Below, in pieces: positions 508 through 12,851 of a stretch of DNA of 64,000 nt. Origin of the DNA: Caenorhabditis elegans (taxonomy: Eukaryota; Nematoda; Chromadorea; Rhabditida; Rhabditidae); assembly GCF_000002985.6 (NCBI RefSeq), contig NC_003281.10, positions 3,100,001 through 3,164,000 on the forward strand, given 5' to 3'. Position 1 is the stretch's first letter. Every line of letters begins with the position of its first letter. The position numbers and the translations under genes are program-made. The notes under the pieces are model-generated. The model saw only the letters and a list, made by a program, of their open reading frames with translations. It did no database searches and was not told where the DNA came from.

Positions 508-569
508 GGCCTAGTGGCTAACAGGGATGGCTGGGACATACAAGACCGGGGTTCGAGCCCCCGTTGTGG
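508..569 (+). repeat. tRNA-like element T copy 1
   Basis: Family T, defined here, has a 62-nt core GGCCTAGTGG...CTGTGG containing the pol III A-box text TGGCCTAGTGG and B-box text GGTTCGAGTCC. The core can fold a T-arm (CGGGG-loop-CCCCG). A conserved 5' body ends CCCATATCGATTTTTC and a short T-run follows. In this copy the B box reads GGTTCGAGCCC. Confidence 0.85.
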
Positions 570-796
570 TTAATAGTTTTTGTTTCTACTTCCTTGTATG
601 GAGAGCTACACGGAAAGTTCCAAAAATGACAGTTTTCATGTTTTTTGGATTTTTTTTCGAAAACTTGGAAAACTTTGGTTATTTTCTTGGATTTTCTCAA
701 AAATTTGTCGGCAAGTTACACATAAAAATTCAAGTTCACCGTGAAATTCCCGTCAATCTGACACCCATATCGATTTTCTCAAAAATTTGAATTTTT

Positions 797-858
797 GGCC
801 TAGTGGTTAACAGGGATGGCTGAGACTCACAAGACCGGGGTTCGAGTCCCCACTGCGG
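797..858 (+). repeat. tRNA-like element T copy 2
   Basis: A and B boxes are both exact. The 5' body (GTCAATCTGACACCCATATC) is present, as is a T5 run 3' of the core. Confidence 0.85.
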
Positions 859-11600: not shown

Positions 11601-11707
11601 TTCCTGAAAAATATCGATTTTCTCAATTTTTTGGTAAAGTTATTCTCCTAAAAAATATCGATTTTTACTCACCTTTCCTCCGAATGATCTTCTGACGACA
11701 CTGACAT
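5668..11707 (-). CDS. Divergent SLC6-type (sodium:neurotransmitter symporter family) transporter, possibly decayed
   Basis: SLC6 proteins are 12-helix symporters. Exon blocks on minus: 11673-11707, 11290-11506, 10529-10667, 9895-10184, 9191-9374, 8691-8898, 8155-8217, 7890-8106, about 7432-7553, 7161-7298, 6726-6815, 6591-6680 and 5668-5946 (stop 5668-5670, AATAAA 5636-5641). Family matches: a TM1-like MSFPF replacing NVWRFP; YFLIPF and YAQYTIGQFT (TM2); a cysteine-containing second extracellular loop; GSINKFSNWC, close to the family's S-YNKFNNNC (TM6-7); LLAEGAVNTIYR, close to the QF-x-VEG-x-xTAL helix 8; and a final loop and helix with a lysine-rich tail. Predicted size is about 600 residues, normal for the family.

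Defects: TAG in frame at 11443-11445; the exon ending at 10529 has GA where GT is expected although the phase fits; the 9895 exon needs an extra short intron to keep frame; and the 7432-7553 exon changes frame near a T7 run. Translation could start after the TAG, at M in HENMALPS. It is either a pseudogene in progress or a gene whose splicing I have not resolved. The missing TM1 signature argues against canonical amine or amino-acid transport. Confidence 0.7.
6149..6210 (-). repeat. tRNA-like element T copy 13
   Basis: In the SLC6-like gene, intron 5947-6590, sense to the gene. Both boxes are intact on minus. Confidence 0.85.
6443..6504 (-). repeat. tRNA-like element T copy 14
   Basis: Second copy in the same intron. 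The A box is altered (TGACCTAGTGG). Confidence 0.83.
6931..6991 (+). repeat. tRNA-like element T copy 15
   Basis: Diverged copy in intron 6816-7160 (ATGACTGGGAGCACAAG) with a one-base deletion and a broken T-stem (GTCCGCGATGG). Confidence 0.8.
7650..7711 (-). repeat. tRNA-like element T copy 16
   Basis: In intron 7554-7889. The B box on minus (GGTTCGAGCCC) is one base off consensus. Confidence 0.85.
8264..8325 (-). repeat. tRNA-like element T copy 17
   Basis: In intron 8218-8690. T-arm and B box are intact on minus (GGTTCGAACCC). Confidence 0.85.
8547..8601 (-). repeat. tRNA-like element T copy 18 (7-nt deletion)
   Basis: Shares an intron with copy 17. It lacks seven bases of the anticodon-arm region (TCTTGGGGCCATCC on plus), so no tRNA cloverleaf is possible. 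Confidence 0.83.
9015..9076 (+). repeat. tRNA-like element T copy 19
   Basis: In intron 8899-9190. CACAACACC replaces CACAAGACC, a subtype shared with copies 20 and 21. The terminal stem TTTGGCC/GGTCAAA is intact. Confidence 0.85.
9479..9540 (+). repeat. tRNA-like element T copy 20
   Basis: In intron 9375-9894. ACAACACC subtype; B box GGTTCGACTCC. Confidence 0.85.
9773..9834 (+). repeat. tRNA-like element T copy 21
   Basis: Same intron as copy 20 and the same ACAACACC subtype, which suggests local duplication. The A box is damaged (ATGCCTAGTGG). Confidence 0.83.
10329..10390 (-). repeat. tRNA-like element T copy 22
   Basis: In intron 10185-10528, inverted. The central segment has GTCCCAGCC for GTCTCAGCC (as seen on plus). 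Confidence 0.85.
10806..10867 (+). repeat. tRNA-like element T copy 23
   Basis: In intron 10668-11289. The 3' half of the T-stem is eroded (GAGTCCCTGAGGGGG). Confidence 0.82.
11111..11172 (+). repeat. tRNA-like element T copy 24
   Basis: Same intron as copy 23. T-arm CCAGGGTTCGAGTCCGG is mispaired, while the terminal stem TTTGGCC/GGTCAAA is kept. Confidence 0.82.
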
Positions 11708-12851
11708 TATCGATTTTTCCTATTTTTCAAGATTTTGATTTTGAAATTATTGATTTTTCTGTAGAATTTTCCCCACAAATTAGAAATAATTTTTTTTTTC
11801 TAGTTTTGTTGTTTTAGGAAGAAATGTGGATAACGTGGAAATTTTATATTAAAAATGGTGAAAGTTTCACGTAAAAATATATGATTTATCGATTTTTTCA
11901 AAAAATTAAATTTTTTCAATTTGTAAATTGGTTATCTCGCTTCAAAATAAGTTTTACAATAAATTTTTACGGCAAAAAAAAAACAGAAAAAATCGATTAC
12001 CCAAAAAAATCACTTTTTAAAAAAATTGAAAAATCGATAATTTTTGGAAAAAAAGGCCTTAAAATCAATATTTCGAAGCTTTTCCAACATTTGTTGAGGT
12101 TTTCCTAAGCTATTCAATAAACAATGGAACAAATAAAAATTATTGATCACTGTGGGGCTCGAACCCCGGTCTTGTGGGTCTCAACCATCCGTGTTAGCCA
12201 CTAGGCCAAAAACTCATTTGTTTAAGAAATTGATATGGTAGCCATATCAACGGAAATTGGCTCAAAAACCGGGTTTTTCAAAAGAAAAATGCCAAAAGTC
12301 GATACATCTCTACTAAAATCGAATCTACCCCAAATTTCGTGGTGGGACCCAAAATCGGTGTCATTTTGAAGCTCCCAATCTGCTGAATTCAAATATCTAA
12401 TTTTCGTAGTGTTTTCGCTACAAAAACTATAGAAAAATTGTTTATTAAAAATAAATTTCTCTCTATATTGATACTACCTTTAAATTTTTTACAAAAAAAA
12501 CATGTCTGTGTGTAGGCGGATACAGGGAGGGGGATACCATCAGTAATTGGAGCTTAAAATTCCGGAAAAAATTGGGAAAGAAAGAAACCTGTAACATTTC
12601 GGATGTGTGGGCGGGCGGGTGATTGTGGTAAGTGAGAATTGGATATTCTGAGAAATTTTGAGCCATGGGAGGAAAAAAAGAACAAAAACTGGGTGAGGAT
12701 CGGGGGACATTTTTTTTGTTGCAAAATAGTCCCCCTACACGTACTCAAAAATTGGAAGTCAAAAAAAAAATTGAAAAAATGAGAAAAAAAATTTTTGTTT
12801 CGAATAAAATCAATCAATAATCAATATCGATTTTTTGCAGCATATTCCATA
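11708..12851. other. Intergenic region between the SLC6-like and NIPA genes
   Basis: AT-rich upstream region of the SLC6-like gene and 3' flank of the NIPA gene. It has tRNA-like copy 25, one R-family fragment (12335-12420) and a less AT-rich stretch at 12500-12760 with no convincing exon. Confidence 0.5.
12147..12207 (-). repeat. tRNA-like element T copy 25 (last copy)
   Basis: Upstream of the SLC6-like gene. I see no further copy from here to the end of the window. Confidence 0.83.

Follow-up and report, generated by a model that had tools for sequence, protein, structure and literature searches.

Paired tRNA-Glu-Derived Repeats on Chromosome III of Caenorhabditis elegans as a Putative Group of Extra-TFIIIC Elements

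A 64,000-nucleotide stretch of Caenorhabditis elegans chromosome III near 3.1 Mb (the window; contig NC_003281.10, positions 3,100,001 to 3,164,000), in what we take to be the left arm, carries a dense group of tRNA-like sequences. The questions raised by this locus are what these sequences are, how they multiplied, and what they might do. In a preliminary description, they were read as 16 plus and nine minus copies of one core with Pol III box text. All 25 were found again using a core profile, with A-boxes spanning positions 507 to 12208, and the same search at E below 1 returned no other copy from the 64-kb window, in agreement with the reported absence from the rest of it. At up to two mismatches, 30 A-box and 28 B-box matches appear in the window, compared with shuffled means of 3.7 and 5.9, respectively. 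The A-box is exact in 20/25 copies and the B-box in 12/25, and the remaining copies are within two mismatches. Five additional A-box-like matches at 21-24 kb read TGGCCGAGGGG, with no B-box match near them. Two more copies are found to the left of the window at -718 and -423, and the cluster crosses the window edge.

Copies from a wider set were collected at E below 1e-8 in chosen stretches of chromosome III (2.868-2.878, 3.080-3.204, and 3.280-3.300 Mb). The resulting 50 copies are located at 2.87, 3.099-3.112, 3.185-3.199, and 3.288 Mb, with densities of 27 copies in 13 kb at 3.099-3.112 Mb and 16 copies in 6.5 kb at 3.185-3.192 Mb. Elsewhere the core profile reaches 59 bits at II 1.33 Mb and 48 bits at I 11.53 Mb; these scores exceed the lowest score among the 50 copies (43.7 bits), and thus the border of the group is our choice. 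The downstream T-run noted earlier was recovered as a T5 run after 47/50 cores, against 27% for a random control. The T-arm, previously called foldable, folds in part: its outer pair is broken in 25/50 copies, in 24 of which the C is kept.

The two host genes were identified, as proposed, by their domains. The first, a DAGAT-family acyltransferase on the minus strand (1402-3938, exon-model span), matches PF03982 in two exons with E values of 4.3e-42 and 1.8e-33. The second, an SLC6-like (SNF) transporter on the minus strand (5668-11707, rough-model span), matches PF00209 at 9900-10185 with an E value of 9.8e-09; two other exons of this gene were searched for the SNF domain and gave no match. 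Three modelled exons are probably wrong because they overlap copies and translate the repeat. The copies had been placed in or beside these two genes. By the rough gene model, 17/25 lie within the two gene spans and 8/25 are flanking or intergenic.

The cores given here were located with the core profile, the conserved blocks upstream of them with a block profile, and their intron placement with the rough exon model. A plus-strand array of three units (507/796/1091) has cores at 504-579, 792-868, and 1088-1163; the first (79.9 bits) is without the upstream block (2.8 bits), and the blocks of the second and third are at 734-779 and 1029-1077. Two plus-strand dimers follow, each with its first unit in a DAGAT intron: 1823-1899 (degenerate block 1774-1804) with 2118-2193 (block 2060-2108), and 2725-2800 (degenerate block 2667-2694) with 3017-3092 (block 2957-3005). 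A single plus-strand core at 3472-3548 (block 3416-3455) occupies a 260-bp DAGAT intron. Between the genes are a minus-strand dimer, with unit 2 at 4055-4130 (block 4141-4189) and unit 1, without block, at 4347-4422, and a plus-strand dimer at 5147-5221 (weak block) and 5439-5515 (block 5381-5430).

The SNF gene holds a minus-strand dimer with unit 2 at 6139-6215 (block 6224-6271) and unit 1 at 6433-6509 (full block 6520-6567). Single cores are found in SNF introns at 6926-7001 on the plus strand (block 6865-6913) and at 7640-7716 on the minus strand (block 7725-7771). A further minus-strand dimer has unit 2 in an SNF intron at 8254-8330 (block 8340-8389) and unit 1, with a short deletion, at 8537-8605 (degenerate block 8629-8662). 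A single plus-strand core at 9010-9086 (block 8954-9001) in the SNF gene is followed by a plus-strand dimer whose unit 1 is intronic at 9475-9550 (full block 9411-9457) and whose unit 2 is at 9774-9844 (block 9711-9757). The remaining copies are a single minus-strand core in an SNF intron at 10319-10395 (block 10407-10450), a plus-strand dimer in the SNF gene at 10801-10877 (full block 10741-10788) and 11107-11182 (diverged block 11039-11095), and a single minus-strand core past the modelled 5' end of the SNF gene at 12137-12212 (block 12221-12270).

The tandem layout of most copies is absent from the preliminary description. Among 22 same-strand neighbour intervals, 14 measure 292-295 bp, a period of about 294 bp; the range of intervals is limited by the same-strand spacing of 270-310 bp that was used to chain arrays. 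The dimer is the most frequent form. Tandem neighbours are up to 95% identical, and the identity of first and last units is 0.683 within an array and 0.668 between arrays. Last units of different arrays are 0.718 alike compared with 0.683 for first and last units within an array (16 arrays), by which independent tandem duplication of each pair was rejected. Spacers were recognised across arrays in 13/22 cases, the 3' flanks of last units in 2/18, and 3' flanks of single copies matched the spacer in 4/10. On a tree of whole units, the first/non-first label requires 9 changes compared with 13.2 when shuffled (5/300 as low), a signal that is gone from the core-only tree (88/300 as low). The label for cluster (3.10 or 3.185 Mb) requires 10 changes compared with 13.6 on the whole-unit tree (7/300) and 12 compared with 13.6 on the core-only tree (76/300). 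Array membership requires 30 changes compared with 33.4 (2/300), which favors local duplication or conversion within arrays. The branches are mostly weak (5/47 starred). The dimer is probably the unit of spread, and the dimer, spacer and inner block included, likely predates dispersal.

Conservation within the unit was measured as pairwise identity among the 22 non-first units. It amounts to.91 for the A-box,.81 for the B-box/T-stem,.80 for the upstream block,.60 for the far body, and.585 for the acceptor remnant, and core columns are more conserved than body columns (P of.022 at G/C and.013 at A/T). The block nearly equals the B-box region, so constraint is not confined to the boxes. The conserved 5' body that had been described is present as this block before 22/22 non-first units, the very units from which the block profile was built, but its score is near zero before 9/28 first or single units. 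A full block precedes 6/28 first or single units, and the 5' end is therefore not uniform. The block was rejected as a constant part of the element, since in the single chromosome V stretch that was read it belongs to another repeat, one that has no tRNA core.

These values bear on an account that we regard as unlikely but worth weighing, in which the copies are inert, decayed repeats of the same tRNA-derived family, any TFIIIC binding is incidental, and box conservation reflects common descent and gene conversion. The divergence of the copies beyond core and block would fit such decay, as would the local homogenisation indicated by 95%-alike tandem neighbours and the array signal in the tree; nothing has shown a phenotype, and the block, which is not a known TFIIIC-binding sequence, is almost as conserved as the B-box region. 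Against inert repeats, the A-box is more conserved than the block and far body of the same units, and core columns are more conserved than body columns.

By alignment, the core derives from a tRNA-Glu gene, which upholds the tRNA-derived origin proposed earlier. The core aligns without gaps over 58 nt with the tRNA-Glu(CUC) gene at III 2.0325 Mb, with 45/58 identical positions (78%) and a score of 32. Scores against 16 other tRNA loci are at most 19; the isotypes compared were Glu, Arg, Lys, and Ile, together with one untyped locus. The match in the middle, outside the boxes, is still significant (2/2000 shuffles). Relative to this gene, the copies no longer have an acceptor stem, and of the ten pairs in the D- and anticodon stems half are lost (5/10 are standard in at most 7/50 copies); the A-box, the B-box, and the T5 run are kept. 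ARAGORN detected 0 tRNA genes in the 64-kb window, and the best Rfam tRNA score for the copies is 27.2, below the cut-off of 29. At gathering scores, the only Rfam match is mir-76, about 30 kb from the copies, and neither program placed an ncRNA gene at the copies. A working tRNA gene was rejected on these scores and on the absence of a cloverleaf with acceptor stem. A long hairpin between ACCCACA and TGTGGTC segments was also rejected; 3/7 of its pairs are standard in 26/49 copies or fewer.

Intronic type-2 Pol III boxes (A and B) and T5 terminators are also features of the mir-1829 family, which shows that Pol III is able to transcribe intronic units in this animal (PMC12157501). It is nevertheless very improbable that the copies are Pol III-transcribed small-RNA genes of that kind. 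The mir-1829 precursor begins about 35-42 bp past box B, with its hairpin between box B and the T5 terminator (PMC12157501), but here the T-run follows box B by only about 13-20 nt, which leaves no room for a hairpin precursor. The copies are without such a hairpin, their RNA folds barely better than shuffles (z of -1.25), and a T4 run lies immediately 5' of the A-box in 46/50 copies. A miRNA-type Pol III gene was rejected on the lack of room before the T-run and on the fold.

The means of spread was examined at 28 arrays. The target duplications that were to be mapped were not found in these arrays; the flanks share 8.18 letters when matched and 8.22 when mismatched (P of 0.47), although short duplications could go unnoticed where flanks are old and A/T-rich. 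Terminal inverted repeats were likewise not found in the arrays (8.57 compared with 8.10, P of 0.09). The copies possess the tRNA-related head with A and B boxes that is typical of a tRNA-derived SINE. A 5' end at the start of an internal-promoter transcript was not found at the non-first units or at the first and single units with a full block, where the block lies upstream. The SINE reading offered earlier was, in its strict sense, rejected on the lack of target-site duplications and on the block 5' of the A-box. Such a block is unexpected in an internal-promoter transcript and supports duplication over random retroposition, a preference already voiced and here strengthened by the missing target-site duplications and the tandem neighbours of up to 95% identity.

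A dimeric tRNA-derived SINE, for which Twin of Culex presumably provides a precedent, shares with the copies its paired tRNA-related units. Retroposition of such a dimer from a Pol III read-through transcript is improbable here. It would account for the tRNA-related heads, the T-run at the 3' end, homology that mostly stops after the last T-run, and the first or single units that are missing the upstream block. The T5 run after 47/50 cores, however, should end a transcript after unit 1. Unlike tRNA-derived SINEs, the copies show no target-site duplications at the 28 arrays, are clustered on one chromosome arm and not dispersed, and share the upstream block, which is full at six first or single units.

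The local confinement reported earlier holds only inside the window. Relatives occur in the other chromosome III clusters, and a genome-wide search with the B-box/T-stem text gives 475 matches, compared with 1 for the control, with two mismatches allowed and real tRNA-Glu genes included. For 100 of these the places were listed, comprising all 47 exact matches and then one-mismatch places from I and II alone. The genome search that had been suggested gave a clustered distribution of the 47 exact matches, not an even one, with 1/47 on IV. Copies on I and V have the 3' (B-box) half in common with the chromosome III copies and an unrelated 5' (A-box) half. In the first comparison of the halves, most loci had been selected with a pattern that includes part of the 3' half, and the repeat comparison was made outside that pattern; the chromosome III set in these comparisons has 52 members by motif, two above the profile count. 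A-half likeness is 0.62 between III and a head-to-head family on II and 0.69 between I and V, which are of another type; the direct copies on II, which are few, do not fall into one group with those on III.

The I and V copies have the same 276-306 bp spacing. Exact B-box 8-mer pairs number 56 genome-wide at 276-306 bp, after 25 of 81 rows were dropped by eye as satellite, compared with 2 tRNA-like pairs at 376-406 bp, where 29 satellite rows and 2 others were dropped by eye from 33. The 56 include II:1564979, which is not tRNA-like, and three pairs that are two steps of a 143-bp period; from a further listing of 55 rows, 37 satellite rows and 1 other were dropped by eye. The recurrence of a spacing of about 300 bp in families with unrelated 5' halves is a further argument against inert repeats. 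Of the I and V spacers compared with the III spacers, 3/15 exceed the 95% point of the control.

On balance, we favor reading the copies as the chromosome III group of extra-TFIIIC or CeRep3-type tRNA-derived repeats, putative non-productive TFIIIC-binding DNA. In the portions of Stutzman et al. (2020, PMC6950938) used here, extra-TFIIIC sites of C. elegans are bound by TFIIIC without Pol III or TBP, are densely clustered in a single arm of every autosome (the left arm in the case of III), and are over-represented in introns. The copies likewise have both an A-box and a B-box (25/25, at up to two mismatches), lie in many cases in introns, and form dense arm clusters, with 27 copies in 13 kb and 16 in 6.5 kb. 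The chromosome ends of the B-box/T-stem clusters match those given in these portions for I, II, III, and V; the single exact match on IV speaks against this reading. CeRep3 repeats, cited there as "suspected as tRNA pseudogenes" that overlap extra-TFIIIC sites, are similarly interspersed and tRNA-pseudogene-like, a likeness by description only. The 294-bp dimer, the common 3' half with other 5' halves, and the tRNA-Glu origin set the copies apart from the description in those portions.

As non-productive TFIIIC-binding DNA, dimers would have spread by DNA-level copying with additional local tandem duplication, and selection against hits in exons would leave copies surviving in introns and gaps. 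Paired units about 294 bp apart could serve as TFIIIC docking sites that yield little or no Pol III product. Elements of this kind are already known, but their construction from pairs and interchangeable halves may be new. In this animal, which has no CTCF, extra-TFIIIC clusters are candidates for heterochromatin insulators (PMC6950938). Testable handles for the composition and multiplication of such clusters are provided by the tRNA-Glu origin, by the 294-bp dimer, and by the different A-box halves joined to one shared B-box half, through two-site spacing, box swaps, and deletion of intronic arrays that spares exons.

A more speculative reading, to which we assign very little weight, is that pairing-centre arms hold modular predicted TFIIIC docking arrays, with a common B-box half, arm-favored A-box halves, and steps of about 147/294 bp, that might act as a spacing-coded scaffold for tethering to the nuclear periphery or for homologue recognition, in the manner of pairing-centre motifs. 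The connection to pairing centres is no more than a lead. The A-half common to I and V and the direct II copies that do not group speak against it, and the likeness (0.62) between the A-halves on III and those of the head-to-head family on II, both of them ZIM-1 chromosomes, lends it weak support.

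Searches of the window for the two boxes with ≤2 mismatches gave 30 matches to the A-box and 28 to the B-box, versus 3.7 and 5.9 in shuffled sequence. The shared core noted earlier was recovered on alignment of the 25 tRNA-like copies claimed in the preliminary description, and a profile built from the aligned core returned the same 25 copies and no others in the 64-kb window. By both searches these copies are real and not a product of chance. Two more copies are found immediately left of the window edge. A set of 50 copies was drawn at E < 1e-8 from stretches 2.868–2.878, 3.080–3.204, and 3.280–3.300 Mb of chromosome III, with clusters at 2.873, 3.099–3.112, 3.185–3.199, and 3.288 Mb. 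Relatives in other stretches, remoter or built otherwise, score up to 59 bits (II) and 48 bits (I) with the core profile, and the border of the 50-copy group is therefore partly our choice. The proposed confinement to two neighbouring genes is contradicted by the copies left of the window, by those on III as far as 3.288 Mb, and by the relatives on other chromosomes. The host genes in the window encode a DAGAT acyltransferase (modelled span 1402..3938, minus strand) and an SNF transporter (roughly modelled span 5668..11707, minus strand), and the host of the group at 3.185–3.192 Mb is a B9-C2 ciliary protein gene; the hosts are thus unrelated.

Chaining of the 50 copies at a spacing of 270–310 bp sorts them into 28 arrays, namely 10 singles, 15 doubles, 2 triples, and 1 quadruple. 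The 22 within-array intervals range from 276 to 305 bp with a median of 294 bp, and 14 of them fall at 292–295 bp. In a unit, a conserved block (CCGTCAATTTGACACCCATATCGA) is joined by a short A/T linker to the tRNA-like core, which is followed by a T-run. This block is located about 60 to 20 nt upstream of the A-box and precedes all 22 non-first units of the arrays, from which its profile was itself built. Among the 28 first or single units, the block scores <3 bits or is unscored in 9, scores ≥36 bits in 6, and is intermediate in the others. A T4 run lies immediately upstream of the A-box in 46/50 copies, and a T5 run is present downstream of the core in 47/50.

The core consensus was aligned without gaps to the tRNA-Glu(CUC) gene at III 2.0325 Mb, with 45 of 58 positions identical. 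The match score is 32, versus ≤19 for 16 other tRNA loci (Ile, Lys, Arg, and one untyped). Two intact tRNA-Glu(CUC) genes that resemble the repeat core in sequence are present in the 2.03 Mb stretch of III (L019), at 6518–6589 on the plus strand and, inverted relative to this neighbour, at 6897–6968 on the minus strand. The cloverleaf of the repeat core is largely gone. T's take the place of the 5′ acceptor strand, and of the 10 pairs in the D- and anticodon stems, 5 are standard in ≤7/50 copies. In 25/50 copies the outer T-stem pair is disrupted, and 24 of these retain the C. The surviving pairs are those of the inner T-stem (42–50 of 50 copies) and the inner anticodon stem (39/49 to 48/50). 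Folding of the core RNA is barely above that of shuffles (z −1.25). Pairwise identity among the 22 non-first units is.91 for the A-box,.81 for the B-box/T-stem region, and.80 for the block, and it is.60 for the far body and.585 for the acceptor remnant. Core columns are more conserved than body columns overall in these units (P.022 at G/C and.013 at A/T). Given the lost stem pairs, the weak fold, and the high identity of the boxes, the constraint on the core looks like one on DNA text rather than RNA shape, and the block looks to be under the same constraint.

Unit identities were compared for 16 arrays. Last units taken from separate arrays share an identity of 0.718, higher than that of first versus last units, which is about equal within the same array (0.683) and between different arrays (0.668). 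On a tree of whole units, the first/non-first label requires 9 changes versus 13.2 in shuffles (5/300 as low). Array membership is also clustered (30 changes versus 33.4; 2/300 as low). The core-only tree carries no first/non-first signal (88/300 shuffles as low). Spacers between units are recognisable across arrays in 13/22 cases, and 3′ flanks in 2/18 last units and 4/10 single units. The likeness of last units, the first/non-first signal, the shared spacers, and the mostly unshared 3′ flanks indicate that the travelling unit is probably a dimer, with its end near the last T-run. Some arrays probably grew later in place, since one pair of neighbouring units is 95% identical. The search of aligned copies for target duplications, proposed in the preliminary description, was carried out and found none at the III arrays; no terminal inverted repeats were found there. 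We infer that the elements spread by copying of DNA.

The B-box/T-stem text gave 475 genome matches with ≤2 mismatches, some of them real tRNA genes, versus 1 for the reversed text. The 47 exact matches are distributed over I (12, with 11 at 12.5–14.1 Mb), II (4, at 1.33 Mb), III (17, at 3.10–3.29 Mb), IV (1, at 1.47 Mb), and V (13, at 18.6–19.2 Mb), and none of the 47 is on contig C6. The exact matches are clustered, and the expansion is not local to the window as had been supposed. The halves of the elements were compared at positions outside the locus-selection pattern, and also with the pattern letters included. For III versus I, identity is 0.41 in the A-half (null 0.38), 0.65 over positions −12 to −7 ahead of the B-box (6 nt; null 0.34), and 0.51 over positions +13 to +20 (8 nt; null 0.29). 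The corresponding values for III versus the 18.83 Mb stretch of V (L045) are 0.40 (null 0.38), 0.73 (null 0.34), and 0.61 (null 0.31). The I and V copies read have their 3′ half in common with III and not their 5′ half. The elements at II 1.33 Mb are oriented head to head, unlike the tandem units of III. Four such pairs occur within 4 kb at 5885–9819 of this stretch (L021; II 1.332–1.336 Mb), with B-boxes 123 bp apart in 3 of the 4; they are the same kind of element in an inverted arrangement. At L045 4583–8442, the III upstream block lies inside another repeat, which carries GGCCGAAATAGGCC-like text and lacks a tRNA core. Related text also appears at window positions 15304–15337 and 15719–15752.

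Genome-wide, the B-box 8-mer forms 56 direct pairs with a spacing of 276–306 bp (I 13, II 2, III 12, and V 29), with 25 satellite rows removed. Only 2 pairs at 376–406 bp are tRNA-like. At a shorter period of 141–156 bp, 17 tRNA-like pairs (I 12 and V 5) were obtained after removal of 38 of 55 rows. Pair counts are inflated by a satellite (GGTTCGAGTTTTTCCGC...; II 1.450–1.458 and III 13.585–13.599 Mb), which contains the B-box 8-mer either through descent or by chance. Among 100 listed places of the 475 matches, 38 same-strand distances are ≤1000 bp; 7 fall at 141–154 bp, 16 at 285–305 bp, and none at 155–284 or 306–457 bp. In the places listed, tRNA-like B-boxes on I, III, and V show same-strand spacings of about 141–156 and 276–306 bp. 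The length of the nucleosome core is 147 bp. The quantised spacing and the shared 3′ half are the features deserving of attention.

In C. elegans embryos, 504 TFIIIC sites without Pol III are described in PMC6950938. Both boxes are present at these sites, introns are over-represented, and the enriched arms are I right, II left, III left, IV left, and V right. Repeats account for 44.6% of the TFIIIC-only sites, and CeRep3 for 95.1% of these (PMC6950938). The III clusters, as candidate extra-TFIIIC sites, match these in sequence, place, and density. Intronic A/B-box units can be genuine Pol III genes, as reported for mir-1829 in PMC12157501; in those units a hairpin follows box B, whereas the III elements have no room for one. 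The elements probably serve as TFIIIC docking DNA without a product. Pairing-centre proteins are listed per chromosome in PMC9071541. A literature search of titles and abstracts, with subscription papers mostly outside its reach, returned no paper describing the dimer, the exchange of halves, or an origin from tRNA-Glu.

Other features were identified in the window. At 13211–14436, an 80–100 nt repeat (GTGGCGGGACCCAAAGT...) is present in scattered copies, some direct and some inverted. A long inverted repeat at 19082–19958, with arms of 296 nt that are 92% complementary and separated by 285 nt, is probably a fold-back or MITE-type transposon. The mir-76 precursor is located at 42050–42134 on the plus strand (Rfam, 89.4 bits).
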